This document shows, piece after piece, positions 1-16,723 of a DNA stretch of 47,616 nt. Within the stretch, counting starts at the first letter, position 1. The number at the start of each line of letters is the position of its first letter. The notes beneath the pieces are model-generated. The model was given only the letters and a program-made list of their open reading frames with translations. It did not search any database and was not told the DNA's origin. Made by a program: the position numbers and the translations under genes. Source of the stretch: Patescibacteria group bacterium (GTDB taxonomy: Bacteria > Patescibacteriota > Minisyncoccia > Phycocordibacterales > UBA2100); assembly GCA_021731295.1 (NCBI GenBank), contig JAKFXQ010000022.1, forward strand, positions 1-47,616, given 5' to 3'.

Positions 1-3000
1 CGCGTAGAACTGCGCGTCCAGCACACCTCCCGTGATGGTCATGCCGTATGAACCTGAGCCGAGTTGTTCAATCGTGGTTGTCGCCGTCGACGCACCTAGG
101 ATCTGAAGCGTCCCGGCGCCGTGCGTCACTGACGCTCCACTTGCAAGCCGAACATTCGCTTGGCGAGCGCCGCCACCCAGAACGGTCCCATCAAAGTCTG
201 TCGCATGACTCCAGTATTCGTTTCCGCTCGAGCGATAGTCGCCCCAGATGTAGAGCGAGCCATCCACTGCTCCATGATCTTGAATGTAGAGCGAGCCACT
301 CGATGCGACGACGGGAACACTTGAGGATGCGTTCCACATCTTTATATCCGTGTTCTCACCGACGCGCAGCGTCGCGTATTCATCACCGCCGACCGTCTTC
401 GCGTTTGCCGTGTAGCTGTTGCCGGAATTGAGGAAGAGTGTCGAACCGGTCCATGTCGTCGATGCGCCGCCCGTTTGGTTAGAGAACCCACCGCCAACTT
501 CCAGAGTATTCCCGCTCCCTAACGTGAACGTACCGCTCGCAAGTGTCGTTGTTGCCGTTGAAGTTGCATTTCCACTCACGGTCCAGCCGCCGAGTGGGTT
601 TGCAAAGAGAAGTGTTCTGAACGACGACGTCCCCGGCGTGACGGTCTCCCCTGTGTCGCTTGAATTAAATCGCACGGTACCACTGTTGTGCACGAACGTT
701 CCCGACGTCGCGACCCACGACCCGCCGACCGCAAATACACCTGATGGCAGTGTCGCCGCACCGTTATCGAACCGCACTGTATTTGTGGAGGTCGCGTTCG
801 TATCCACAAATGACCAGCTCCCGCCCACGCCGGCAAACGTGAGGTTGTACGTGTCCGTGCCATTAAGGCGCAGTGTTTGCACAGAACTTGCGGTGAAGCG
901 AAGTGTCCCCGAATTATGCGCGAAACTGCCGCCGTTTCGAGAGAAACTTCCCCCAACTGCGTGCGTGCCAGACGGCAACGTCACCGCGCCATTCGTGATG
1001 ATCGTATGCCGTGAACTTGTGGCATGCGCTTGACCAAAGGACCACGAGCCCGTGCCGTTAAACGTCAGGTCGTAGAAACTAGATGAGAGTGGCGTGATGG
1101 TGTCAGCGGTCGCCGAAGTGAAGAGGACTACTCCGTTGTTGTGCATGAACGACGCACTACCGGAGACCGTGAAGCTTCCTGCCACGGTCGTCGTGCCATT
1201 CGAGAGCGTGACGATACCATCAGAAATCGTGAGATCGTTGGAAACGGTAACGCCGGTTCCAATGAACGACCAGTTACCGCCAGAGCCGTTGAACGTCAGG
1301 TTATTGAATGACGAACTCCCCGGCGTGATGGTGTTCCCAACGTCCGTGGCAGTGAAGGTCACTGTGCCGCTCTGTGCCGTAAAGACGTTGTTATTCGTAA
1401 AGTTTCCGCGAACTTCAAGTGCGTGGCTCGAGCCCGCAGTGAGCGCATCATCTGCGCCTATCGTGATGTCCGTCGCTCGTGCGGCAGCTCCCAACGCAAC
1501 GGTTTTTGAAGTACCGTCGATAAGGACTGTGCCCAAGTCCTGCTTCGGCGTCGTATTGTCCGTCCAGCTTGATGAGCCCGTCCCGTCGAACGTCGTAGTG
1601 CCAGTGCCTTTGGTGAAGAGACCGTTCGTGTTTATGGTCAAACTGGAGGCAAGGTTCAAGTCAGATGTTCCCTGTGAGACAGTCCCGTACGTTATCGCGA
1701 GGGTGCCGTTTATGTCGATGTCACTGGAAAGATTCCACGTCGGCGCGCCTGATGTCTGGCCGAATGTGACGTTATTGAATGACGCATCTGCCGCACCGGT
1801 AGAATCAACGCTTTCCGTAGTCGAGGTTGCGGTGAAAATTACACTCGACGTGCCGGGCGTCGTAGTTCCATTGTTGTCCCACGACCCTTCGATGGTAAAT
1901 GTATTTCCATCCATCGTAAGGGTGCCGTTCACTTCGACATCGTGCGTTGAGACATTGCCGCTCGAACCAGAGTCCGGCCGGTACGTCGTGCCCGCACGAA
2001 TCCAGAGTTCGACCGGGTCGCATCCTGTTACCACACACGCGTCCAAATCGTTTCCGGCATCCACATCGAAGAATATGTCTTCGTTGTTTAGCGACGCAGA
2101 ATAGTCGTAGTTTGAGAGATTCGCGTTCGTGATGGTGGGGTTTTCGTTCGAACCGAGCGTGATGTGGCGCTCGAAGAGTTGCATCCCACTTATGTCGCCA
2201 TCGCCATCGTATATCGTGACGCCAATCGCTTCATTGGTATCCGCCGCACCGGTTACAAAGACAGTAACCACATCGTCCTCGAACGCAGTCACGTTCGCAA
2301 TTGACCACGTGCCGCCACTTATAGTTCCTGTCTTCCCCGTTTGCAGCTCGCCGTTTACCGCAACCGCGACGGTGCCCGACGTAACGTTCGAGGACTGGTC
2401 ATACTGCTGTGCCGTGCCGGAAACAGTAATGCCTTCCGACCACTGAATCGTCCAATCATTGAGGGTTGGACAATCGCCACTGATACAGTCCAGGTTCGCA
2501 CGCGGTCGTATTACGTTGTAGGTAATACGATTTAGATTCTCGATGTTCACGGGGCCAGTGGACGTGCCGAGTGTGTTATACGGCAAGTCAACTTCTGGAA
2601 TAAGCGCCCACGAGCTCGTTGAGGTGAAGTACTCAAGCTGGTAGCGAACGTCGCTCGAACCAGGTGTCGTATCGTTCCAGGAATAAGATTCCCACTTTGG
2701 TCCATTTCCGTCATCGAAGTCAACGGGGGGCGAAACGACGACACCAGACGTAAATTCCGGATACACACGCGCGACGATGTCTATAGGCACGGTCGCGGGA
2801 GTAACCGTGGTGATAGATGATGGCTCAAGGACTTCTTCTGGCGACCAAAGCGTGCCGTTCCAATACGTGAAATCGTATTCCGTATTTGCGTCATCATACG
2901 CAACAACGAGAATGCTGCCGTCACCCGTTCGCGCACTGCGCAACTCCCACGAGTCCGTGACAGTGGTGAGCGCCGTCGGTGTTCCAAGTATCGAGCCGTC

Positions 3001-6000
3001 CCAGTCACTATATAGCGCGTTCGCTGTATCGCTCCAAACCGTCATGATGTAGCCATCGCGACTTCCTTCTGTCTCGTACTCACAGGAGAACGGGCGCCCG
3101 CCGGCGGCATTGGCAAACGGGGTCGTACCATCGATGGTCTGATACGGCTCCCAGCTGTTCGTCGAACCAGTCCAACGAGCGAGCGCTATCCATTCGTCGT
3201 TGTCCATAAAACAGAGCGCCATGTTGTCCGTACCCACGTCGCGTACCAATCGCCCCGCTTCAAAGTCGTCTTGTATGACATGTGTATTCGTTCCGACCCA
3301 CGCACCGCTCGTCCAACGGTTGTAGATGAAGCTCGCCCCACCGCCGTTCGCTACGACGACCACGGCATCCGTGCCAGACTCCTCATACTCAACGGCGATA
3401 CCCTCACTGTTTGCTTCGGATGCGGACCCCATGGTCATAGAACTCACGAATATCGAACCGTTCCAGACCCATGCCTGATAGTCCGTCGCCCCTGCTATGG
3501 CATCACGGAACACCACAATAATTTCATCAGACGTCGGATCTGAAGCCAATTTTACCCATTCGCAATTGCCCGCTATCCCGAGTGCGAACGAGGTGGTCGC
3601 GTTCCACATGGTTCCATTCCACGTCGTATAGGTCGCCTCTGTTCCCGCACACGCAACGAGCAATGCATCACCCGACGTTGTCTCGTACGCGACATCAAAG
3701 CCGCGTTGTGTAGCGTCCGCAACGAAGATGAGGTTCGACGTGAGATCGTCCGTCGTATTCGTGTCGCCGTCATATACTTGCGCACGCACACCGCCGGTCG
3801 AGCCCATTGTCGCAATAATGTATTCGTCGCGCGTTGGCGCAGCAGCTACCTCAACGAAACGCTGGACCGCACCAACAGACTGTGCATCAAATTCTTCGGT
3901 CCATGTGGTTCCGTTCCACAGTCGGTACTTAGGAGAAAGCGAGGTGCCCTCGGCATAAGCGACAAACGCTTCGCGATTTGTTGTTGTCACCCGAAGACTA
4001 TCGGACCCATACGTTTCAAGACTCGTTAGTGTATCGGTATCAAACTGCTCATCCGTTGTCTGGAACCACGTGGAAATCACCACTGCAGTGTCTATGGTGA
4101 AGCTCCGTGGTTCAGTCCATGTTGACCAAACGTTTCCACCACTCGGGTCGATGGCACGCACTCTCCACCAGTAGGTAACGCCGTCGGTCAGGGCATCGGC
4201 CTGCTGCACTTTGAAACTAATCGTGTCGCTGTCATCGAATGGTGATGTGTCCGTTGAGGACGCCGTATTCGCGAAGCCAGCATGGAGATTAGACGAACGC
4301 GTCGTCGAGCCACTAACGAACGTATTGTCCGTCGAAATGGAGAGTTGGTATACCAAGGTGTCATCTTGCGGATCATTTGAGTAGAAGAGGAACGTCGGCG
4401 TCGTCGTGCCCGTCTTCTCATTATCGAACAGTGCAATTTGCGTCGGCTGTTCGACCGCGAGACCCCACTCTACGGTCCAACTCGTAAGTCGCGGCGTCGA
4501 GGCCGTTGTCGTCGAGACCGCCTGCAGTCGCAGTTCGTTGTATATCGTGGGCGAAAGAGACAAGAGCGATATGGGCGACGCGAAGAAACCAGTGGCGTTA
4601 CCCGTCAGGTCGGAGTTCGGAATGTCCTCCCAATCCGCTCCGGTCCAGTACTGCACACGATACCGAATGCCGCTGTTTGCGGGTTCGGTATCAGTCCAAC
4701 TGAGACTGCCCCATGCATTTCCAGTAGTCAGCCAATCGAAATCTATCGAGGTCGAGGTAGTTGTTCCCACCGTGTTTGGCGGCGTTAAAACGACATCATC
4801 GGTCGAGGTCGCTTCCGTGTTCTCGAAATCGTTCGTCGCAAACTGCTCTTCCGTGGTCTGGAACCATGTAGTGATTGTTGTGCTGGTGTTCACGGTGAAG
4901 CTATACACTTCTGACCACGAACCCCATTCGTTGGAATTATTTCTGTCACGCGCACGAACACGCCAGTAATACGTGGTGCCGTTCGAGAGCGCTGAACTTG
5001 GCACAAAGCGAATTACCTCACCTTGTGTAAATGGGTCTTTATCAGCAGGCGTCGTGATGTTAGAAAATTCGGTAAAGTTAGTTTGCGAGTTTCTATCGAG
5101 CACTGCCGAGCTGAAATCGTAGGTATCGTCAACCTGTACCTGATACGTTAGGTCGTTACTTTCGTCATCAGCGCCGGTAAATTCGAACCACGGCGTAGTT
5201 GATGCGACCTGCTCGTTGTCAAAGAGTTTCTGTATTTCCGGCGCATCGGGAGCGTCATTCGTACGCAACGCTGGATACGTATCGTATTCATCGAGCGGCT
5301 CTCCGGAAGCATTCACGACACGGAAACAGTAGTCCGTACTAGCAGCGCCATTGTGCTCCAACACCCAGTCCCATTCGGTCTCCTGATCTTCCGCAGCTGT
5401 ATTCGGGTTGTATGCCGAGTCATTCTCTTCTTCATACGTCGCGACGACATCGGAGTTCATAAGAAGTGGCGAGGAGAGTGTTGTCCCATCAGAAAGTCCG
5501 CCGACATCATAGCCACGCCACGCTGCAGTGGTCGAACCTATGGCGCCGACATCGAGCCATTCAGACACCGCACTACAGGATGCAGAAGGTGCGAACTGTA
5601 GCCGGAGCGATGCGAAGCCGGCAGGCAGTCCGACGTTCTCTGTGAGCACCCCAAGTCGTAGTCGCAAGGTGTTCGTAATTGATGGCGACGACGCATCAGT
5701 GATTGGCATGTCCTCATCGTGATCAGCGACGCCGGTAGGCCATGGGTCGGACGGTGTGAGTCCCGTTGAGTTTGCATACCACCGATAGTGCGTTTGCGTG
5801 AGATATGGCGCGCGCACCCAGGCGAGCGTCCATGCGTCGAGCGAAGGAACATTCGACCCCGATGTAGTCATAGTGGCCTGCAGACACAGGCCGGAATACG
5901 TAGTGGTCGAAATACCGGATATATCCAGCGGACTCGACGAGACCTGGAACCCGGTCTCGTTTCCAGAAAGCACACCATTCGTGAGTACGGCGCCACACGT

Positions 6001-9000
6001 GCCTGAAGAGCCATCCAACACCTGGATGACGACATCGGTCCCCGCAGGCTCTGTCGTCTCCCACGTAATTTCTCCCCACGTGCTCTGCCCTGGAACGAAA
6101 TCAAAGTCGATGACCGTCGATGTGTGCGTGCCGGTGTCCGCCGCATAAATGCGTGGCGCCATCGAGAATGCTTCGCGGAACGGCGCAGCGTCAACTGATG
6201 CATTGCTTTCTATCGTTTCAATCGTGTCCCAAGTTGTCCCGTTCCAGAACGAGAAGTCGTACCTATCGTTTGGGTCGTCATGGAACATCGCGAATATAAG
6301 TCCGTCTCCCGTGCGAATGCTCGAAACTGTCCACGAGTCAGTAATCGTCGATACTCCAGCTTCTCCTGAATGTGCGGACCCATTCCAGTATTGATATTGT
6401 CCATTCCCGTTATCGCTGTACGGAATCATCAGATACCCGTCGCGACCACTTGATACTTCAAACTGACAGCTAAACGGTCGTCCTTCAATCGTTCCTGAGC
6501 CCGCACCGTCGTTCGTATTACCCGTACCATCAAACTCGTTCGTACCTGCCGCAAACGTCGCCCACCCGTCACCAGTCCAGAGTATTGAGCCAAGGTCGTC
6601 ATCCTGGTCGGAATAGCAGAGTCCAAGATTGTCACTCCCGACATCTCGTGCAATATGCCCCCACTCAAAATCGTCGCCGAGTGTGAACGGTGTTGCGGGC
6701 GACCACTCGGACAACGTCGTATCCCACGCGCTCCACAGAAAGCCTGCAGTGCCGCCGTTAGAAACGACGACCATCGCCTGATTCCCCGACTCCTCATATT
6801 CAATTGCCATTCCCTCGTGAGCGACGTCGGACATAGAGCCAAGAGCAGGGCCCACCGTCCACGCACCCCCATTCCAGGAAGCAACCTGGTAGTCTGTCGC
6901 GCTAGCCGCCGTGTCACGAGCAACCATCACTATCTGGTCTGTCGTCGGATGTGATGCGAGTTTAATAAGTTCGCAATCGTTAGTTAGTGTGAGGTTGATG
7001 GTGCCACCAGAAACCCAGCTCGAGCCGTTCCACACGTAGTAGCTTGGGTCAGCGTCGCCATCACAGTACACGACAATGGCATCACCAGATGCACTCTCGT
7101 ACGCGATATCAAATCCGCGCATGGTAAGGTCGTCGAGTCCTGCCGTTACCTCCTGCAAGTCACCCCATGTCCCCGCATCTGCATCAAATACCTGTACGTT
7201 CACATCATTCGACGCGTCTTGCGTTCCCATCACATATTCGTTCCGTGTGGGTGATGGTTTTGTCACTATCCACTGAATCGTGCCGCCAACACTTTGTGCT
7301 GACAATTCGCCGCCCCATGACGCTCCGTCCCATAGCTGATACCGCGGTGTCTGTACCGTACCTTCAGCGTAGACGGTAATCGCCTCAACGAGCGGTGGCA
7401 CGACGAGCTCAACACTCCCGTCGCCCGTGGTTTGTGTGAGGTCGAAATCTCCAGTTTCAAACTGTGCGTCTTCGGTCTGGAACCACTGCGAAGGCGTAAT
7501 GTCGGCGATGTACGTATAGCTCGTCGTGGTGCTCCACTCGCCTATTGCAGACGTATCATCCGAAATCCCACGAACACGCCAGTAGTACGTCGTGCCGGAG
7601 ACGAGCGCCGACTGCATTGTGAAGCGTATGCGTTCGTCTTCGGCGAAAGGACTAGTATCACCTCCGTTGTCGAGATTCTCGAAACAATTCGGTGAACACC
7701 CGCTCTCATCGTCCGATGTATGATCGCCCAGTGGAGATGTGTCCAAATCTTCGTCATCGTCCCATTGAATCTGGTAGATCAGATCAGATGTGCTATCTGG
7801 ATCGGTCCCGGTGAACTCAAACTCTGGTGACGAAGTGCCGCTCTTTTCGTTGTCGAACGGGCTATGCAACGTGATGACAGGAGGCTCTGGTGCGTCGCGC
7901 TTCGCGAAGACCGCCGTGCGATAGGGAGGAAGATGGTTCGTCGTACTGAAACTCGAGACGTTGATGTTGTGTGTGTGTCCTCCCGGGGCGTCCGAGGCTC
8001 CAGTGGCAGTTCGATTCACCGTTGCCGATGGACCCTGCGAAACCACCGTCACGTTGGACTGTGCATGAGTCGATGCACCACCTGTGGCGCCGTACGTTGT
8101 CGTCGCCTGCACAAACCGATTCTCAAACGCTCCACCAGCACTCGACGTTGTTGCCCAGCCGGATGCGGCATCAGCACTCCACATCGCAATCATGTCGTTG
8201 ACGGGGGACGACGTCGCAGTCACCCGTGCCAGCAAGGCACCTAAGTACGGTGGTTCGTGGTTTGTGAAGCCTGATGTGGCGTTGACGCCATGCGTATGCG
8301 TCGGCGTGGAAATCGCCTGGGGACCGTTACCGGCGTCACCGCCACCTGAAGCCCCTTCTGTTGTGCCGGTTATGGAGTGCACGTGCGTTGGAGAGCCTCC
8401 TGTCGTTCCGGCGGTTGAGGTAGACGCCGCACGAATTAAGCGTCCATCTTGCGCGGCAACACGATACCAACCGACAGGAAGTGACGAGGACGCGACATCG
8501 AAAATTGCTATGGCGCCCGCAGGAATATCAGTTGGTTCGCCTGTCGCATTGTGTTGAATAACGGCGAGCTCACGATATTGTGGCAAACTCGACGTGGCAC
8601 CAATTGAGGGCGAATTGAATGTGTGCGTGTGTGCAAGCAGTGCTACATCTGGCGTTCCCGCGGTACCGTTCGAGTCACCGGTCGCTCCGGTCGCATCTAC
8701 CGTCGCACTCGCGGTGTGCGTGTGTGTAGCCGCGCCACCGGTTAGGCCCGCCGTCGAGGAGCCCATGATGAAGCGCTGGTAAAACGGATCGGCAGGGAGA
8801 CATGAGACACAAGTCCAGCCTGTCGGAATGTACGGACGGTCCCAGTACAAGAGCATGCTACCGATAGCGTCGGAAGCAAGTTTCCACTGCCGCGCTTCGA
8901 CATACGGCTGCGCATCCCCTTGTCGCACCTCTGCGGGTCCCAGGAGATATATGCGCGGAGAAATATCCGGCGCGTCGTACGTGTAGGTGAAAGTGGTTGC

Positions 9001-11718
9001 TTCCCCCGCTTTGAGTGAGAGCGGCCACACGATACGCTTCGCTTCCCCGAACAAGCGAACGTCACCACCTCCAGAGTCGAGGACTGAGAAATCCTTCGGC
9101 ATGGCCTCAACGAATTCGCCTTCAATATCCGTTGCCGCAGTAACGACAAGCTGCATCGTGTAGCTCGCGACCGGATAGAGTCGTGTCGCACCAATGCGCT
9201 GTATTGAAAACGATTCTGTCGCAACCTTGAAACCATCGGTGATGCGGTGCAGTACGTTTCCATCATCTGCAAACTGCGTTACCGTAATCGCGTAGTCCCC
9301 CGCAACTCCAGCACTGTATGTCGCTGAGTAGTCAGAACTCTCAATGACATTGTTCGGTCCGCACTCGCCGGTCTCGGTAACAGCGACTTCAAACGACGAG
9401 CCATTTGGATCAGTTACGACGGCTTCAAGATTTGCATCGCAGAGAGTGTCGCCTCGCTCATCCAATGCCGCAAACATAAGCGTCGCGGTTTCCCCTGGAA
9501 CGTACGTCGCTTTGTCAGTATTGACGACGAGAACACCCCAGTAGAACGTAACCGTCTCCGCATATGTCTCGCCGTTCTCCTCGATGGTGATGTCTATCGT
9601 GTATTTTCCAGGCTTGAATGAACGCGGATGCTTCTTGAATTCTAGTCGCCACTCTCCATCGTTCTCGTACACGATATCGAGCGGCACGTCCGACGGTTCA
9701 CCGTACCCATCCAAGAGCTTCGCACGCGCCTCGTAGGAACGTTCGCGCCCTTGCAGGAACTGCAAAATGCGCCCGCGCAAGCCTTGCTGCGACTGGAACC
9801 TGAACGCGAAGGACGGCAGTTCGTCGCCACTGAAATGTGTTCGGTCGGTGAGACGGCGATTCACCTGTGGCGCTTCCGGGTCAAGCGCCTCCGAACCCGC
9901 CTCGGCAAGAAAGCGCGAGTCCAACGTGCCCGAGGATGCCACACCGTCTGCGACGATGAAGAATTCCTGCGCACCGGGTTGTGCAGAATCAATCGTGAGG
10001 CGCAAATATATCGTTTGGCCTGGAAACACATTCACGCGCTGCACCTGGGAGCGTGGCGTGAATCCCTCTGGCAATCCCGTTGCATCCGTCGTTTCCTCCG
10101 TGGAGAGCGCGACCCAGTCTCGGGCATACTCGACAACCGTATCCGCACCAACGACCACATCGCTCATCGAACAGTTCGTGCCGGATGGATTAAGCGACAC
10201 ACACGCGCGCGACTCTCCAGATGCGCCGCAGATATAGCCGTCCTCGCTCGCTTCCCATCCTGCCTCGCAGAAATACGTCAAATCACCAATGACCGGAACC
10301 TCGACAGACGTCGGCACGTTGTTCATGTACTGGTGTGCCGCCGCAATTGACGAATCATTGGGGAATCCGGCCCGAAGACTAAACGTTTCCGGTCCGTCGC
10401 CAGTGTTGGTGACACTCACGTACACGATGCTCTGGAGACTGTCTCTGCGTGGCCGCGCCGCATACAGCGGCCTATCCGCACGGAGGCGCAGTGACTGCGA
10501 GGCGTCGCTCGCAAATCTAAATCGAATTGCGCCGTCGCGGCCTGCGCGCAGCGTCGCAATGTCGGCGCCTTCATCGGACAGTTCGAACGTAACGTTCTCT
10601 GGCGCATCCGCAGGCTCTTCCTCACCAGTGAACAAATCCTGCGTGCGCTCTTGGTATTCGATATCGAGCCACGCCGCATCGAGGAACAACTCGCCGCCAC
10701 CATTCACGCGCTCATACTCGAACTCAACGACGACGTCTTCGAGCTCGCTCCATGACGTTATGTCTGAGAGCACGCTTTCGAAGTAGCCGCCGTTGGTGCC
10801 GTTCGAAATATCCGTATTGAGGAAAATTGCACCTGCATCGCGCCACCTGCCGTTATGGAAATAGCGCACCGAGAACATGTCCTCAGCCTCACCTGCCAAA
10901 CGATGTGCAAATGAGAACCGGAGCGTTGCGCCAGTGAACACTTTTTGTGTTAGCTCACCATCAACGACGAACCCGGAGACGTGCAGTGTGTGGCACGCGT
11001 CACCCGAAATGGCACAGCTCGCAACCTCGGAAACGCCATCCTCAATAATGCCAGTGGCGACGTGTGCCTGCACGGTGGAACCCATGTGCGAGAGAATGAA
11101 ATCAATTCCCGACTCGAAGAACGACGTCGGCTCGCTCGATACTGGCGCTGGTTCAGGCACAGGCGCGAGCTCAGGCACAGCTACTGGAGTGGGTGAATCT
11201 GCGATGGGCTCTGCGGAATCTGCTGGCGCTTCTACAGCAGGAGTTTCCACCTCGGCTTCCGCGGATGGAGAAGTTTCCTCTGTAGATTCTGGAGCAGTCT
11301 CGTTCACCGGTTCTGTCTCCGGCATTGTCTCGGGCGTTACGCCTTGCTCGGATGATTCCGCGTCTTCACCGTCTTCGCTATTTTCCTCTCCCACTTCTTC
11401 AACTACACCTGTTTCGGAATCCACGGGAACCTCGGGACTAGAACCTCCACCGCTAGACACGTCCGTGTGCGGCGCTATATGCGCTGCATTCTCATTTGAG
11501 AACACCTCGAACAATGCCTCTTCTGCGAGTTCTTGCGAAAGTACCTGGTCCGCATTCTCCCACCCGACGGACTTAACCGCGGTCGGGAAGACGTGCGCAA
11601 CTCTCGTCTCACGAAATGCCAGCACGAAATCGCCCGATCGCGAGAGTGCGAACGTAGCAAAAACGACCCCTACGAGTATGAATACCGCGTGTGCAATTCG
11701 CTTGGGACGGAGCCTCAT
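1..11718 (-). CDS. Giant membrane-anchored multi-domain surface protein (C-terminus cut by window edge)
   Basis: One uninterrupted frame of 3906 codons from ATG 11718 to the left edge; an in-frame TGA lies 48 nt upstream and there is no other start codon between. Residues 1-9 are basic and about 9-26 are a signal/anchor helix. Residues 90-198 are an acidic Pro/Ser linker. About 200-360 and 430-600 look like beta-sandwiches, and about 720-830 resembles an MG2-type Ig domain (TYVPGETATL). About 943-1277 are three HxH tail-collar-like modules. Near 1277, 2157 and 2420 are Fn3/Ig-like domains with TYYWRVR. About 1437-1857 and 2567-2977 are two homologous W(N/D)GxxW propeller-like modules. About 3263-3886 are beta-strand repeats (GSFxxxSGTVxFT). 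It is secreted and probably displayed outside the cell for attachment or host contact; the role is inferred. No sortase motif can be assessed because the C-terminus is missing. Confidence 0.93.
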   Translation of the reverse strand, partial: MRLRPKRIAHAVFILVGVVFATFALSRSGDFVLAFRETRVAHVFPTAVKSVGWENADQVLSQELAEEALFEVFSNENAAHIAPHTDVSSGGGSSPEVPVDSETGVVEEVGEENSEDGEDAESSEQGVTPETMPETEPVNETAPESTEETSPSAEAEVETPAVEAPADSAEPIADSPTPVAVPELAPVPEPAPVSSEPTSFFESGIDFILSHMGSTVQAHVATGIIEDGVSEVASCAISGDACHTLHVSGFVVDGELTQKVFTGATLRFSFAHRLAGEAEDMFSVRYFHNGRWRDAGAIFLNTDISNGTNGGYFESVLSDITSWSELEDVVVEFEYERVNGGGELFLDAAWLDIEYQERTQDLFTGEEEPADAPENVTFELSDEGADIATLRAGRDGAIRFRFASDASQSLRLRADRPLYAARPRRDSLQSIVYVSVTNTGDGPETFSLRAGFPNDSSIAAAHQYMNNVPTSVEVPVIGDLTYFCEAGWEASEDGYICGASGESRACVSLNPSGTNCSMSDVVVGADTVVEYARDWVALSTEETTDATGLPEGFTPRSQVQRVNVFPGQTIYLRLTIDSAQPGAQEFFIVADGVASSGTLDSRFLAEAGSEALDPEAPQVNRRLTDRTHFSGDELPSFAFRFQSQQGLRGRILQFLQGRERSYEARAKLLDGYGEPSDVPLDIVYENDGEWRLEFKKHPRSFKPGKYTIDITIEENGETYAETVTFYWGVLVVNTDKATYVPGETATLMFAALDERGDTLCDANLEAVVTDPNGSSFEVAVTETGECGPNNVIESSDYSATYSAGVAGDYAITVTQFADDGNVLHRITDGFKVATESFSIQRIGATRLYPVASYTMQLVVTAATDIEGEFVEAMPKDFSVLDSGGGDVRLFGEAKRIVWPLSLKAGEATTFTYTYDAPDISPRIYLLGPAEVRQGDAQPYVEARQWKLASDAIGSMLLYWDRPYIPTGWTCVSCLPADPFYQRFIMGSSTAGLTGGAATHTHTASATVDATGATGDSNGTAGTPDVALLAHTHTFNSPSIGATSSLPQYRELAVIQHNATGEPTDIPAGAIAIFDVASSSLPVGWYRVAAQDGRLIRAASTSTAGTTGGSPTHVHSITGTTEGASGGGDAGNGPQAISTPTHTHGVNATSGFTNHEPPYLGALLARVTATSSPVNDMIAMWSADAASGWATTSSAGGAFENRFVQATTTYGATGGASTHAQSNVTVVSQGPSATVNRTATGASDAPGGHTHNINVSSFSTTNHLPPYRTAVFAKRDAPEPPVITLHSPFDNEKSGTSSPEFEFTGTDPDSTSDLIYQIQWDDDEDLDTSPLGDHTSDDESGCSPNCFENLDNGGDTSPFAEDERIRFTMQSALVSGTTYYWRVRGISDDTSAIGEWSTTTSYTYIADITPSQWFQTEDAQFETGDFDLTQTTGDGSVELVVPPLVEAITVYAEGTVQTPRYQLWDGASWGGELSAQSVGGTIQWIVTKPSPTRNEYVMGTQDASNDVNVQVFDADAGTWGDLQEVTAGLDDLTMRGFDIAYESASGDAIVVYCDGDADPSYYVWNGSSWVSGGTINLTLTNDCELIKLASHPTTDQIVMVARDTAASATDYQVASWNGGAWTVGPALGSMSDVAHEGMAIEYEESGNQAMVVVSNGGTAGFLWSAWDTTLSEWSPATPFTLGDDFEWGHIARDVGSDNLGLCYSDQDDDLGSILWTGDGWATFAAGTNEFDGTGNTNDGAGSGTIEGRPFSCQFEVSSGRDGYLMIPYSDNGNGQYQYWNGSAHSGEAGVSTITDSWTVSSIRTGDGLIFAMFHDDPNDRYDFSFWNGTTWDTIETIESNASVDAAPFREAFSMAPRIYAADTGTHTSTVIDFDFVPGQSTWGEITWETTEPAGTDVVIQVLDGSSGTCGAVLTNGVLSGNETGFQVSSSPLDISGISTTTYSGLCLQATMTTSGSNVPSLDAWTLAWVRAPYLTQTHYRWYANSTGLTPSDPWPTGVADHDEDMPITDASSPSITNTLRLRLGVLTENVGLPAGFASLRLQFAPSASCSAVSEWLDVGAIGSTTAAWRGYDVGGLSDGTTLSSPLLMNSDVVATYEEENDSAYNPNTAAEDQETEWDWVLEHNGAASTDYCFRVVNASGEPLDEYDTYPALRTNDAPDAPEIQKLFDNEQVASTTPWFEFTGADDESNDLTYQVQVDDTYDFSSAVLDRNSQTNFTEFSNITTPADKDPFTQGEVIRFVPSSALSNGTTYYWRVRARDRNNSNEWGSWSEVYSFTVNTSTTITTWFQTTEEQFATNDFENTEATSTDDVVLTPPNTVGTTTSTSIDFDWLTTGNAWGSLSWTDTEPANSGIRYRVQYWTGADWEDIPNSDLTGNATGFFASPISLLSLSPTIYNELRLQAVSTTTASTPRLTSWTVEWGLAVEQPTQIALFDNEKTGTTTPTFLFYSNDPQDDTLVYQLSISTDNTFVSGSTTRSSNLHAGFANTASSTDTSPFDDSDTISFKVQQADALTDGVTYWWRVRAIDPSGGNVWSTWTEPRSFTIDTAVVISTWFQTTDEQFDTDTLTSLETYGSDSLRVTTTNREAFVAYAEGTSLSPKYRLWNGTTWTEEFDAQSVGAVQRFVEVAAAPTRDEYIIATMGSTGGVRAQVYDGDTNTTDDLTSNLIFVADATQRGFDVAYETTSGDALLVACAGTEATYTTWNGTMWNATTSFALGIAGNCEWVKLASDPTSDEIIVVFRDAIAGATDYQAWVWNGSIFVSSMTMGSASEANSEGIAVEYEESGTDAVVVVANGGGASFIYNRWTSGAWVGTNTHVIQDDFEAGRLVRDVGTDNMALCFMDNDEWIALARWTGSTNSWEPYQTIDGTTPFANAAGGRPFSCEYETEGSRDGYIMTVWSDTANALYSDWDGSILGTPTALTTVTDSWELRSARTGDGSILVVAYDDANTEYDFTYWNGTLWSPEEVLEPSSITTVTPATVPIDIVARVYPEFTSGVVVSPPVDFDDGNGPKWESYSWNDTTPGSSDVRYQLEYFTSTSSWALIPEVDLPYNTLGTSTGPVNIENLNRITYNVIRPRANLDCISGDCPTLNDWTIQWSEGITVSGTAQQYDQSSNVTSGTVAVAVNGELQTGKTGTISGGTWSIANVTAFEDDVVTVFVTGAADTNEAIGVTIYDGDGDISGMQLFERHITLGSNENPTITNANLSNYDYSASLNNEDIFFDVDAGNDLDACVVTGCDPVELWIRAGTTYRPDSGSSGNVSTHDVEVNGTLTMDGNTFTIEGSWDNNGTTTPGTSSVIFTATSTTESVDSTGAADASFNNVTFGQTSGAPTWNLSSDIDINGTLAITYGTVSQGTSDLNLASSLTINTNGLFTKGTGTTTFDGTGSSSWTDNTTPKQDLGTVLIDGTSKTVALGAAARATDITIGADDALTAGSSHALEVRGNFTNNNVFTAQSGTVTFTATDVGNTITPGSSSFNNLTFNGSGGNWSFIGTGVTVSNDLTISDGIVTLSNGTTTVAGSFTVSGSASFMHNNGVVLFTSATADTITPLSSSFYDLTFNGTGSWSFGQAHATSSRHTIITNGAVTLPSGTHAVGGSFSRNGGSFAHNSGTLRFTASSVQTLRLNGTDTYNLTFAGVGGSWSFVDTNATSTNTVRFDNGAATLPSGVFAVGGSWVATSGTFVHNSGTVRFNSSDTGETVTPGTSSFRTLLFANPLGGWTVSGNATSTATTTLASGTFTLGSGNTLEVGGGFSNQTGGASTTWTGSTLFLNSGNSYTANAKTVGGDEYATLRVGENTDIKMWNASSSVPVVASSGSLYIQDHGAVDGSLYIWGDYRSSGNEYWSHATDFDGTVLGGGARQANVRLASGASVTHGAGTLQILGASTATTTIEQLGSGSYGMTITGGVLDAQFYA
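60..1932 (-). repeat. C-terminal beta-strand repeats of the giant protein
   Basis: About eight imperfect protein repeats of about 70 residues built on the pattern GSFxxSGxFxHNxGTVxFTS, TITPxxSSF, xLTFNGxGGxWSF. This is typical of Thr/Ser/Asn-rich stacked-strand (solenoid-like) stalks. At DNA level the copies are diverged, so this is an old array. Confidence 0.6.
2850..3930 (-). repeat. Propeller-like module, copy 2 (seven WNG motifs)
   Basis: Seven motifs: LWNGTTW, TWNGTMW, VWNGSIF, RWTSGAW, RWTGSTNSW, DWDGSIL and YWNGTLW. Flanking phrases are shared with copy 1 (RGFDVAYE, GRPFSCE, SRDGYIM, RTGDGSIL), so the two blocks are diverged duplicates separated by Fn3-like domains. Confidence 0.65.
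6226..7340 (-). repeat. Propeller-like module, copy 1 (seven WNG motifs)
   Basis: Seven aromatic motifs in order: LWDGASW, VWNGSSW, SWNGGAW, AWDTTLSEW, LWTGDGW, YWNGSAH and FWNGTTW, about 60 residues apart. Each is preceded by strands such as GDAIVVY and GNQAMVVV. Seven evenly spaced blades suggest a seven-bladed beta-propeller, possibly lectin-like. It is homologous to copy 2 at 2850-3930. Confidence 0.65.
7890..8890 (-). repeat. Three tandem tail-collar-like HxH modules inside the giant protein
   Basis: At protein level each module of about 105-115 residues has a hydrophobic start ending in GW (PTGW, PVGW, ASGW), an RF/RL-I sequence, TxGxTGG, a first THxH or STHA, a Gly/Ser-rich stretch, a second HTH and an LPPY/EPPY/LPQY end. 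This order matches phage tail-collar / fibre-tip proteins, where HxH pairs bind metal. In the third module the first HxH is degenerate (THAQ). Confidence 0.7.
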
Positions 11719-11858: not shown

Positions 11859-13337
11859 CTACTGTCCGCGCACAGACCGTTTGAGCTCGCCCATATCGGT
11901 GTCCACGAGCTCTTCCGATATGTCGATGACTTCCTTGATGTGCTCCAGCATGTCGCGCTCTTCGGGAGTGAGTTGCGGCTTTTCGTCGAAGTCGTTCACC
12001 ATCTGCTCGAATTCTTCGCGCATAGACGCAAAGATTCGGTCAAACTTGTCGGCCATGCCCGAAATGCGGTCGATGAGGCGCTCTTTGTCACGTGCCGCCT
12101 GATTCCTCGTGTAGACCATGATGGCCGACAAAGCGCCAATGATGAATGCGAAGATAATGGTGAGAATGCGTTCTGCCGTCCATGGCGACGGCTGCTCCAC
12201 GGCCGCCTCGGCGCGCGCACGAGCGGTCGCAATCAGGGGAAGCGTCAGATCTTTCGTAACATCGCGCGAGTTCCCCGCCTTGTCGAACGCCTTTATGGTT
12301 ACCTTTATCTCCCCACCGTCAGTCGCGGGCGCGGGCGTGGCACCGTCGGTTAAGTCCTGGGCCCGAACGGTCGCCGCGATAGTTTCGCCATAGAGAATCT
12401 GATACCTATCAACGCCCGAGGTCTCGTCCGTTGCCTCAAACGTAAAGCGCGGTGCCGCTGTGCCATCTGCTGAATCGACGAAACTCCAGTCGAACTCCAA
12501 TGGCGGCGTCGTATCCATCTGCACCTTGAAGATTCCGGATTCGCCCCAACCAAACTCATTTTCGTACTGCGCGATGAGGAACCAGACACCGTCAGCGCTC
12601 GCCGTCATGGTGAGCGGTTCGTTTACATTTGAAATTTCCTCGTTCGGCGTATCCGCCTCATTTTGCGACAGAATGACGCGGATAGCAGTCGCGTCTGCCG
12701 GTGGCTTCCACGTAAACTGCGCCGTCGTTGTCGCGTACCACGAGTCAGATTTCGGGTGCGTCGGCGAGGTGATTGATGGGGCTATCGGCGGATCACCTCC
12801 CGCGAGAAATCCCCCTGCCGGAGGTGGGGGCGCTGCGGGCGGTGCCTTTGGCGCTGCAGGCCCAATCGTATAGGTAGATTCTATGCCGGCGGTGAAGACA
12901 TTGGTCCCCTTTCCGTCCGCCGCGAGTACCGAACCTTCCTTAACCCCAAGTTTGAGTTCTCCTTCTGCTTTTGCTTTAAACTTTATGGTCGCTACCGTGC
13001 CTTTGGTCGCAAACGCACTCGGCGTTCCACCACTGAAATTCATCGTGCCCGCGGAGTTTGAGAAGGTTGGGTCTGCGGTCCAGAGAGAAAAGACTGAGCC
13101 ATCTTTCGAGATACTGACCACGCTTGCGAGCGCTGGATCGAACGTCACGGTTCCATCGGATGCATTCACATTTTCGCCCTTCGGATCGACTGATACTTTT
13201 ATCGAAAATTCGTCGCCGACGCCGAAACTACCGGTCGCAGGTGAAAAATAGAGCTCTGCCGCGTTCGCAAAGAGTGGCACGAGGAGTAACCCTGCGACAA
13301 TCGAAAGAACGCTTGAGTGATGGAACTCACGCATCAT
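11859..13337 (-). CDS. Membrane-anchored cohesin-like domain protein
   Basis: 492 aa. Residues 1-27 are a signal peptide (ends FANAAE). About 28-155 form a cohesin-type beta-sandwich (YFSPATGSFGVGDEF, VTFDPALASVVS, GTVATIKFKAK). A Pro/Ala/Gly linker follows, then two Ig/Fn3-like segments (TTAQFTWKPPADATA; APRFTFEATDETSGVDRY). A membrane helix lies near 390-408 and a charged helical tail of about 85 residues follows, probably cytoplasmic. This is an outside-facing sandwich with an internal coiled tail. Two ATGs exist; TACGAT at 13342-13347 lies 7 nt before the second (13334), favouring that start. It sits directly upstream of the giant surface protein and may be functionally linked; no dockerin was seen. 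Confidence 0.85.
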   Translation of the reverse strand: MMREFHHSSVLSIVAGLLLVPLFANAAELYFSPATGSFGVGDEFSIKVSVDPKGENVNASDGTVTFDPALASVVSISKDGSVFSLWTADPTFSNSAGTMNFSGGTPSAFATKGTVATIKFKAKAEGELKLGVKEGSVLAADGKGTNVFTAGIESTYTIGPAAPKAPPAAPPPPAGGFLAGGDPPIAPSITSPTHPKSDSWYATTTAQFTWKPPADATAIRVILSQNEADTPNEEISNVNEPLTMTASADGVWFLIAQYENEFGWGESGIFKVQMDTTPPLEFDWSFVDSADGTAAPRFTFEATDETSGVDRYQILYGETIAATVRAQDLTDGATPAPATDGGEIKVTIKAFDKAGNSRDVTKDLTLPLIATARARAEAAVEQPSPWTAERILTIIFAFIIGALSAIMVYTRNQAARDKERLIDRISGMADKFDRIFASMREEFEQMVNDFDEKPQLTPEERDMLEHIKEVIDISEELVDTDMGELKRSVRGQ

Positions 13338-13392: not shown

Positions 13393-13878
13393 CTAGACGG
13401 CCATGACCTGGATACGCTTGCCTTTGCCCTGAACAGTCTTCAGAGGAAGTAACAACATCAAAACACCTTCGTGCATCTTCGCCTCCGTTTTCTCTGGGTC
13501 TACTTCTGACGGAAGGATTATTTGGCGATAGAACGGCCCCCACGAACATTCTTCAAGTACGTGTTCTTTGTTTTCTAGTTCCGCGCTCTGGAAATGCTCA
13601 CCATTCGGACGCGTCCGATTGCCTTTGATGGTGACAATATCGTCATCGCCCTCAATCATGACGTTGAAATCATGTACGGACGTGCCCGCCATTTGCGCGT
13701 ATATAACAATCGCTGTTTCCGTCTGAAAAATGTCTACCTTTAACTGCTCAGCGGATTGTGTCGGGGGATTTGCCGCAACGCTTGCGGCCACCTGCTGCTG
13801 TACCTTATCGTCTTTAGTCTCCGCAGTGCTTGCGGGAATAACATCCTTTTTTTTGAGTCTATCCAAGAACGATGACAT
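13393..13878 (-). CDS. Hsp20 / alpha-crystallin small heat-shock protein
   Basis: 161 aa. A Lys/Asp/Gln-rich N-terminal arm (1-45) precedes an alpha-crystallin domain (about 47-140: LKVDIFQTETAIVIYAQMAG, DDIVTIKGNR, FYRQIILPSEVDPEKTEAKM) ending in the family signature as EGVLMLLLPL. It is an ATP-independent holdase that prevents aggregation of unfolded proteins in the cytoplasm. The length is normal for the family. A consensus TATAAT lies 19 nt before the ATG with no clear Shine-Dalgarno, so transcription is separate from lepB behind it. Confidence 0.92.
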   Translation of the reverse strand: MSSFLDRLKKKDVIPASTAETKDDKVQQQVAASVAANPPTQSAEQLKVDIFQTETAIVIYAQMAGTSVHDFNVMIEGDDDIVTIKGNRTRPNGEHFQSAELENKEHVLEECSWGPFYRQIILPSEVDPEKTEAKMHEGVLMLLLPLKTVQGKGKRIQVMAV

Positions 13879-13952: not shown

Positions 13953-14522
13953 TCAATACCGATGCTCTCCCGGAAGATAGTCAACCTCGTCGAGCGGAAA
14001 CAATCGCGCAAACGCGCGACCGATGATGTACTTTTCCTGTAGTGGTCCCCACACGCGCGAATCCGAACTTGCAGAACGATTATCGCCCAGTACGAAATAC
14101 TCGTCCTCGTGCAGCGTGGTCGTCTCATCACGCGTGCCACGCATAGAACCTGACGAATACGGCTCTGTGAGCACGATTTCATCGCCTTCTGCGGGCACAA
14201 TGCGCATCGCACCATCGTGCAAAATAACGGTCTCTCCGGGTAGTGCAACGACGCGCTTTATGAAGAATGTGTCCGGATCCTGCGGGTAGCGGAAAATGAT
14301 GACGTCGCCGCGCTGCGGCTTCTCGAACCGATAGGAAAGCTCATCGATGACCAAGTATTCTTTGGGCTCGAAGGTCGGTTGCATTGAAGCACCAGAAACG
14401 ATGAACGGCTGAGCGACGAAGTATCTAAACGGCGTAACAATGAGTAGTGCAAGAATAGTGAATTTTATGATTTCCAGCATCATGTTTTTCTCGCGCGGCA
14501 CCGGTAGCGTTTCTGATTGCAT
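13953..14522 (-). CDS. lepB: Signal peptidase I
   Basis: 189 aa. One N-terminal membrane helix (about 15-35) is followed by the S26 catalytic boxes: SGASMQPTF with the nucleophile Ser46, RGDVIIFRYP, FFIKRVVALPGE with the general base Lys89, and the GDNRSASSDSR box. It cleaves signal peptides of Sec-exported proteins at the outer face of the membrane, and several exported proteins lie around it. The length is typical of single-anchor Gram-positive/CPR type. The start is supported by TAGACT ending 6 nt upstream. Confidence 0.96.
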   Translation of the reverse strand: MQSETLPVPREKNMMLEIIKFTILALLIVTPFRYFVAQPFIVSGASMQPTFEPKEYLVIDELSYRFEKPQRGDVIIFRYPQDPDTFFIKRVVALPGETVILHDGAMRIVPAEGDEIVLTEPYSSGSMRGTRDETTTLHEDEYFVLGDNRSASSDSRVWGPLQEKYIIGRAFARLFPLDEVDYLPGEHRY

Positions 14523-14934: not shown

Positions 14935-16623
14935 CTAGAGCGTGGTGAATGACGTCTCGGAACTGGTCCCTGGATTATTCGCTGCGTCCCTGGATTCGAG
15001 AACGATGTAGTATGTCGTCGAAGCCATGAGACTGGTGAGGCCAAGGGAATGACTCGTCACTGATGCTCCGTCAGTAACCGAATTAGCCGTGCCAAGAACC
15101 AAGGGCGTTGAGGTGCCGTAGTAGATCTTGGAGTTGGCCGATTCGTTCGTCGTCCACATAACCTGCGCGGTCGTCGTCGACGGCGTTATCGAGATAGCGG
15201 AGATGACGGGGGCCGTGGTGTCTGCCGGAAGCGCTCCGGTCGAGAACGACGTCTCGCTACCGGTCGCCGTGTTGTTCGCCGCGTCCTTAGACTCAACCTT
15301 GAAGTAGTACGTTGTGGATGGGTTGAGGCCAGTCACGTCGATTACGTGCGTCGTGGTCATGGTGCTGTCGGTCTTCGTCTGCGCAGACCCCATGTTCAGC
15401 GGTGACGTCGATGCGTAGTAGACCTTGGAATCGCTCGTTTCGTTCGTCGTCCAGCTGATGCGCGCTGTAGAGGTGCTTACCTGAGAGACCGAGATGGCAG
15501 AAAGTGTCGGTGCCGTGGTATCAGGGGCGGTGTTCGTCGTGAACGAGAACGGCGAGGATGTTGCTGTGTTCCCCTTCTTGTCTTTCGACTCGATGACGTA
15601 GTAGTACGTAGTTGCCGCCGAGAGACTGGAGAGCTGAACAGAATGATTCACATTGTGCGTGTTCCACCAATTGTTTTCTGTAACGGATGAGGCACTTGCG
15701 AGATTCAACGGCGAACTGGTGCCGTAGAAGACTTTGCCGGTCGCAGCCTCGTTCGTCGTCCACGTAATGCCTGCAGACGTCTGCGAAGGATTAGAGGCGA
15801 TGTTAGAGAATGTCGGCGCAGTCGTGTCAGTGCCGGTTGTGGGCGGCGTAGTCGTCGGTGTTGTGCCGTTGCACGGGACCCATGAGCTCTTCTTGCCGTT
15901 TTGCTCTAGGCGCATGCCCGGCGTGATGAGGAGCTTCTTCTTGCCATCTTTCTCGATGTAGGAGTTCGGCGTGATGACAATCTGATGCTTGCCGTCCTTG
16001 TAGATGTAGACGTTGCCTGTCTGGATGATTTTTACTTTTCCGTCCTTGAAGACGCCGGGTATCCCCGCAGGAATAGTCGGTATTGCACACGGATTCGATG
16101 CAGGAGGAGTGATGGTGCTGAAGAGGTCTTCGAGCTCTTCGAGTGCGTCGTCCTCAAGATCCTCGCTCAAATCCTCTGCCTGCTTGAACTGCTGCTTAAT
16201 CCACGAATTGAGCGCCATGCGTGTGCGTGGACCAACAAAGCCCACGGACTCCAGTCCATTGCGGCGCTGGAAACGCTCGATGGCACGACGTGTTGCCGGA
16301 CCGTAGTAGCCGGTAATCATTGCTTCTGGGTAGAGCTCTGTATCGCTCGAAAGGAGCGTTTGGAGCAATTTAACTTGCTCACCTTCAGAGCCCACAGAGA
16401 GGCCCTGCATGATTTCGAGGACCGTTTGCTGTGTCTGGACTTCAAGCTGGACCTTCTGCTGGTTCAGACTGGCAATCTGGCTCTGCAATGCCTTAATTTG
16501 CGCGAGTAATTCTTCAATCTTGGCAATTCCGTTCGTTTCAGCGCTAGCGAGCATGGGGAATATACTCCCCAGGACGACGCCGCAGACGACGAGTGCCGTT
16601 ACGTGTTTCTTCATAGTGTTCAT
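14935..16623 (-). CDS. Exported protein with peptidoglycan-binding domain and three Fn3-like repeats
   Basis: 562 aa from ATG 16623; the longer frame begins with TTG and lacks a signal peptide at its end. Signal peptide 1-28 (ends LASAE), then a coiled coil (about 30-70, KIEELLAQIKALQSQIASL). A PG_binding_1 domain follows (about 73-140, GSEGEQVKLLQTLL, TGYYGPATRRAIERFQ). Next is a KDGK-type strand repeat (about 185-255) and three Fn3-like repeats of about 100 residues, each with the core WTTNE, (V/I)YY.TS(S/T)PL and TTYY.(V/I).ES(K/R)D. It is likely attached to the cell wall and displays the Fn3 stalk outside. The leader is about 80-90 nt and contains a short AGAGC/GCTCT hairpin. Confidence 0.9.
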   Translation of the reverse strand: MNTMKKHVTALVVCGVVLGSIFPMLASAETNGIAKIEELLAQIKALQSQIASLNQQKVQLEVQTQQTVLEIMQGLSVGSEGEQVKLLQTLLSSDTELYPEAMITGYYGPATRRAIERFQRRNGLESVGFVGPRTRMALNSWIKQQFKQAEDLSEDLEDDALEELEDLFSTITPPASNPCAIPTIPAGIPGVFKDGKVKIIQTGNVYIYKDGKHQIVITPNSYIEKDGKKKLLITPGMRLEQNGKKSSWVPCNGTTPTTTPPTTGTDTTAPTFSNIASNPSQTSAGITWTTNEAATGKVFYGTSSPLNLASASSVTENNWWNTHNVNHSVQLSSLSAATTYYYVIESKDKKGNTATSSPFSFTTNTAPDTTAPTLSAISVSQVSTSTARISWTTNETSDSKVYYASTSPLNMGSAQTKTDSTMTTTHVIDVTGLNPSTTYYFKVESKDAANNTATGSETSFSTGALPADTTAPVISAISITPSTTTAQVMWTTNESANSKIYYGTSTPLVLGTANSVTDGASVTSHSLGLTSLMASTTYYIVLESRDAANNPGTSSETSFTTL

Positions 16624-16723
16624 AGTTGTAATAATGGAGAGCTTTCGCTCTACATCATCAGACGCCGGGGCGAACGCCAACTTACGCGTTTCTTCATGGA
16701 AAACGTGGTGAGAATGTTGTCAA

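Follow-up and report, generated by a model that had tools for sequence, protein, structure and literature searches.

Giant surface proteins have been described in CPR bacteria (Vampirococcus, PMC8080830) and in Omnitrophota (PMC10066038), where very large exported proteins have been proposed to act in host recognition by small-celled symbionts; these are heterogeneous, poorly conserved open reading frames. In RTX-type giant adhesins, such as the 5047-residue adhesin of Aeromonas hydrophila (PMC12077191), a long repeat shaft is combined with ligand-binding domains. In Firmicutes, WxL clusters encode a WxLIP protein (DUF916, a DUF3324 Ig-like pair and a TM segment) together with large and small WxL proteins (PMC10599100). 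At the level of single domains, HxH motifs bind iron in the tip of the T4 long tail fibre (PMC11705849), and BclA-type domains are trimers (PMC11952670).

The protein described here resembles the CPR and Omnitrophota giants in being very large and apparently exported, but differs from them in belonging to a defined family with a fixed triple trunk, a swappable triple head and a syntenic operon that includes a phylum-wide WxL-like module. It shares with RTX-type adhesins a long repeat shaft and putative ligand-binding domains, although no RTX family was detected in it and its anchoring would depend on a DUF916-like partner. Giant surface proteins in CPR were already known (PMC8080830), whereas the family, its triple head and trunk and its anchoring module are new as far as the searchable literature shows; a search that was incomplete, with few subscription papers and bioRxiv preprints, found no publication naming WxL in CPR or the family of the giant.

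The window, a stretch of 47,616 nucleotides, is contig C5 of a Patescibacteria MAG (G000; 998 kb, 95% complete, 50 contigs). The single frame that the preliminary description had placed at one end of it, open at the contig edge, was located there on the minus strand, running from an ATG at 11718 with no stop down to base 1 (Table 1). Homologues confirm that it is coding, and 3906 open codons would be expected by chance, from the composition of this strand, with a probability of ~10^-69. The length then given, at least 3906 aa, proved right, and the neighbouring contig, whose recovery had been recommended, is C17: an open frame at its start encodes 2437 aa and supplies the C-terminal remainder in frame, the end of C5 (...TTC TAC GCG) and the start of C17 (ac GCG TTT) overlapping by 5 bases. 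Across the junction, the joined residues AQFYA-FADMNATGL align without indels to internal C17 copies (ASYYS-VRNTDANGL). In the same-genus genome G202 the orthologue is a single uninterrupted ORF of 6336 aa, with trunk caps at 3826/4619/5388 as against 3824/4625/5389 in G000; of its flanking genes, the upstream ones correspond to C5 (signal peptidase, Hsp20, cohesin-TM) and the downstream ones to C17. From this we infer, and strongly, a full protein of ~6342 aa and ~668 kDa, of which the window ORF is the first 62%.

Table 1. Features of the giant gene and its upstream neighbours in the window (aa, residues of the giant protein)
Feature	aa	Position	Strand	Remark
Giant surface protein, N-terminal 3906 aa	1-3906	1..11718	(-)	Continues on contig C17, bases 3-7316; inferred total ~6342 aa
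First of three ~780-aa strand-repeat trunk units	3161-3906	1..2238	(-)	Units 2 and 3 on C17
Trunk-unit cap 'IWGDY...YW..ATDFDGT', conserved		1-798	(-)	In first trunk unit
Cassette 2, diverged internal duplicate of cassette 1	2421-3074	2497..4458	(-)	
Cassette 1 (Fn3/Ig + ~8-repeat propeller-like + jelly-roll-like)	1281-1960	5839..7878	(-)	
Head slot, three tandem phage-tail-collar-like units	955-1276	7891..8856	(-)	
Collar-like units in head slot		8545-8856, 8215-8514, 7891-8193	(-)	
MG2-like/Ig region	700-960	8839..9621	(-)	MG2 E 6.6e-4, below Pfam cut-off
Acidic Pro/Glu/Ser-rich linker	85-200	11119..11466	(-)	Composition
N-terminal export segment (hydrophobic aa 8-26)	1-33	11620..11718	(-)	Hydropathy
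Exported 492-aa cohesin-domain protein with TM helix		11859..13337	(-)	Directly upstream of giant gene, conserved there
Hsp20 gene		13393..13878	(-)	Upstream neighbour, syntenic
Signal peptidase (S26) gene		13953..14522	(-)	Syntenic in same-genus orthologous locus

The modules named in the preliminary description were recovered. Its Fn3 module corresponds to an Fn3/Ig match to Pfam PF25788 (E 5e-12), its propellers to a ~380-aa module that has ~50-aa WNGxxW repeats and is present in two diverged copies, and its strand repeats to the trunk units, the propeller and trunk folds being read solely from sequence repeats. Scans of the undivided giant against Pfam, PDB and PHROG gave few matches, and profiles of the cassette and of the trunk found nothing significant among PDB sequences. 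The trunk cap occurs in exactly three copies in every member with a complete trunk, in a count of 32 rows that represent ~24 distinct genomes (some appear twice); two truncated rows have two caps. The MG2-like region is present in 20 of the 26 genomes probed, the other six having no MG2 match, and the linker near the N-terminus is probably disordered, judging from its composition. Elsewhere in the genome, contig C42 (L015:371-4772) carries type IV pilus genes (PilC-like and prepilins), and a stretch of its 596-aa prepilin-like protein is 40% identical to the jelly-roll region of the giant.

Collar and TNF/C1q/BclA-like folds form homotrimers in other proteins. In the giant, the collar-like HxH module is present as three tandem copies with tail-fibre matches in PDB, PHROG and viral folds: the collar family profile matches a solved tail fibre (PDB 9qgo, an entry with three chains; E 3.4e-5), the head matches PHROG tail-fibre families, and a viral collar fold in BFVD is matched with E 3.7e-6, from a low-confidence model of the head. 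This model has a mean pLDDT of 46.8, with three beta cores at ~75-88 and poor values in the HxH loops, and gave nothing usable against PDB by Foldseek; the units have no match in Pfam. As in phage tail-collar and tail-fibre proteins (T4-type HxH; PDB 9qgo), the collar unit contains GxIxxW...PxGW, HxH and a terminal PPY, but in contrast to the identical chains of a phage homotrimer the three units are non-identical and lie in one bacterial chain. Across the family each unit has two HxH motifs, and three units per chain are compatible with a putative metal-holding HxH trimer; the head of G000 is probably metal-coordinating through HxH.

Exactly three head units occupy all 18 complete slots downstream of the MG2-like domain, and the heads fall into three unrelated types: collar in nine of these slots, TNF/C1q/BclA-like in seven and, in two, a 'GYW' type with units of ~115 aa that end in GYW. 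The TNF/C1q/BclA-like heads of relatives resemble the C-terminal trimers of that group (PMC11952670) through weak, repeated profile matches (TNF E 1.2e-4; BclA_C in 6 of 11 units) but have three tandem units per chain, and the type is absent from the protein of G000. For each of the 51 head units tested, the best match was the same-index copy in another genome, suggesting that every head triplication is old and that the copy number has been kept since. The three head and three trunk units of one chain may pack about a shared axis as a single-chain pseudo-trimer. The triple head is not universal, as the six genomes without an MG2 match and the G137 subgroup indicate; this subgroup has neither MG2 region nor triple head, and G137 has DUF2341/LamG-like modules instead. 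Recent capture of the head from a phage is unsupported, since a scan of viral contigs found no relative and tblastn against a phage collection gave no match to the head.

The C-terminal part was modelled in the closest relative, L063, over its last 750 aa (24 sequences; mean pLDDT 82.7). Prevailing disorder, which the preliminary description had named as an argument against a surface protein, was not seen at this confidence, and only ~aa 85-200 are linker-like. Residues 120-306 of the model, equivalent to ~aa 5709-5892 in G000 (68% identity between the two domains), resemble CBM66 4b1m (VIA Z 18.3, rmsd 2.6 over 155 residues) as well as thrombospondin and legume lectins (Z ~16-17), and an L-type (ConA-like) jelly-roll lectin fold is predicted with confidence near the C-terminus. 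The final ~160 aa (pLDDT ~50-80) form a new domain that matches no Pfam family and whose profile found nothing significant among PDB sequences. With the whole 750-residue model, Foldseek returned multi-domain all-beta matches with low TM-scores, so that the model supports the lectin part alone, the remaining parts being barely tested.

A query with the trunk cap found 42 named loci, nearly all in Patescibacteria MAGs, and complete members of the family measure 5.5-7.5 kaa. The three ~780-aa trunk repeats, DUF2341, the L-type-lectin-like domain and the new C-terminal domain are constant, whereas members differ in their N-terminal region and in how many Fn3-propeller-jelly-roll cassettes they contain, head type and cassette number changing from species to species. 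Within the genus, the full constant C-terminal part is carried by 3 of 52 genomes (G000, G202 and G020), and a fourth match, G333, is confined to the DUF2341 stretch. Family-like loci were also observed under the record titles Neomarinimicrobiota, Planctomycetota, Legionellaceae and Omnitrophota (L064, L071, L091, L097); these are probably Patescibacteria contigs that were mis-binned or mis-titled.

Most neighbours of the giant are exported or membrane proteins. On C17 it is followed by genes for a 226-aa coiled protein, an Fn3 protein, an ABC ATPase and an FtsX/MacB-type permease, and then by those for a 616-aa protein (C616), a 351-aa two-Ig TM protein, a dockerin protein and two cohesin-TM proteins. 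The order cohesin-TM, giant, Fn3, ABC ATPase, FtsX permease, C616, two-Ig TM, dockerin, cohesins is kept in other families. In three genomes (loci L127, L128 and L129) the giant is separated from an otherwise intact operon on another contig, and in G201, G299 and G160 partner genes are on a different contig from the giant. Cohesin-TM, dockerin and cohesin+dockerin proteins on both sides of the giant (L014:15455-19188 and window 11859-13337) are conserved across families. Further along the window (14935-16680), an exported protein of 581 aa combines a peptidoglycan-binding domain with Fn3 repeats.

C616 carries the same C-terminal domain as the giant, and a two-Ig gene adjoins a carrier of this domain in all 13 further loci, including a C26 paralogue in G000; in the C17 operon and in most of the further loci across the phylum it stands beside two carriers. 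The two-Ig protein has a C-terminal TM helix and, with no direct Pfam match, its profile aligns with a PF06030-positive protein of G000 (hhalign 95.7%, E 8.6e-9, 245 columns). The layout is that of the Firmicutes WxL clusters (PMC10599100), in which a two-Ig TM protein of DUF916 kind adjoins a large and a smaller carrier of one C-terminal domain, the large one having N-terminal binding domains. However, the C-terminal domain of the giant is not PF13731 and has no dual WxL (Trp-x-Leu) motif, the large carrier measures several kaa, ABC/FtsX and cohesin/dockerin genes are added, and the phylum is another. The WxL domain PF13731 was found neither among 23 C-terminal domains nor in the whole G000 genome at E<=10, in a search in which a Lactococcus lactis control scored. 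As the genome holds no PF13731 and the C-terminal domain has no Pfam match, tethering is proposed by analogy only, and the module would work like a WxL cluster without being classed as one.

Two other contigs of G000 carry related genes. On C26 (L116:10901-16538), a second WxL-like module consists of carriers of 1236 aa and 335 aa followed by a 286-aa two-Ig protein. On C20 (L117:10815-15821, L105) there are three DUF916-like membrane proteins, of which the one passing the PF06030 cut-off sits after a secreted TasA/WxL-like protein of 391 aa; comparison of the latter with the C-terminal domain of the giant showed no similarity.

The preliminary description had proposed a large external mosaic protein, and the export segment, the phage-fibre-like head, the lectin fold and the mostly exported or membrane neighbours bear this out. 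The attachment to a host cell that it further suggested is putative. The C17 continuation, the conserved operon, the threefold units, the exchange of heads and the WxL-like module had escaped it. We consider it reasonably probable that the giant is an exported fibre-like adhesin with a WxL-style C-terminal tether and a variable N-terminal head that binds a partner cell. It would leave the cell by its N-terminal signal, and its C-terminal domain, together with C616, would dock on the adjacent two-Ig TM protein, putatively of DUF916 kind, as has been proposed for large WxL, small WxL and WxLIP proteins in Firmicutes (PMC10599100). The putative lectin-like domain beside this foot may hold a wall or surface glycan, the three strand-repeat trunk units would form the shaft, and the N-terminal half, which includes the propeller cassettes and the triple head, would face outward and bind the partner cell. 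What sequence comparison supports in this picture is the C17 continuation, the family, the operon, the triple units and the recurrence of the C-terminal domain. The C-terminus is taken as the foot because the anchoring module shares its domain; the N-terminal half, being the variable part, is taken as the tip. Variation of head type and cassette number by species is expected of a tip that determines specificity, and the change of head type resembles that in phage tail fibres. The lack of a WxL domain, the partner genes on another contig in G201, G299 and G160, and the subgroup without MG2 region and triple head weigh against this reading. A more specific form of this reading, held only tentatively, is a single-chain counterpart of phage fibres and tailspikes, a pseudo-trimer on a new phylum-wide WxL-like anchor that selects the host cell.

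The adhesin might instead stand the other way round, with the N-terminal segment as an uncleaved membrane anchor and the lectin and C-terminal domain as the distal, partner-binding tip. In complete family members a 19-residue hydrophobic segment follows a basic stretch, hydropathy found no further TM segment in the giant, C-terminus included, and the lectin fold lies close to that end, all of which suits this orientation. However, several members show by eye a candidate [V/A]-x-A signal-peptidase site after the hydrophobic segment, which is compatible with a cleaved signal peptide as well as with a signal anchor; moreover, the recurrence of the C-terminal domain beside a DUF916-like membrane partner fits a foot and the variability of the N-terminal half fits a tip, making the reverse orientation somewhat unlikely. 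A surface coat or matrix protein (S-layer-like or a biofilm scaffold) with no host-cell receptor would account for the strand repeats and Ig/Fn3 modules, which are common in coats, and for the cohesin and dockerin proteins of the operon. This is unlikely, as a protein found in only 3 of 52 congeners is no basic envelope component and swappable phage-fibre/TNF-like heads fit recognition better. The cohesin and dockerin genes that flank the giant, together with the L-type lectin/CBM66-like fold, could also point to a cellulosome-like extracellular scaffold that captures polymers or enzymes through lectin, propellers and the neighbouring cohesins and dockerins; Pfam scans of both halves of the giant, however, found no dockerin, cohesin or catalytic family, and there was no hydrolase among the operon genes scanned, so that such a role is very improbable. 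That the size is an assembly error fusing separate genes is scarcely credible: both parts are MAG contigs and the C5/C17 join was made in the present analysis, but 3906 aa lie within one contig and G202 and several other genomes have single ORFs of 5.5-7.5 kaa on single contigs.

The family combines a proposed shaft and foot, both fixed, with a switching head and a conserved anchoring module, which makes 'giant surface proteins' accessible to experiment. Head types can be set against the hosts of the species that carry them, and the head, ~340 aa in this protein, is small enough to express. If the triple units are indeed single-chain trimers, they would be a new build of a fibre tip familiar from phages and from proteins of the TNF type. 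The C-terminal domain and its DUF916-like partner recur across the phylum and would offer a general way into the surface display of these cells.
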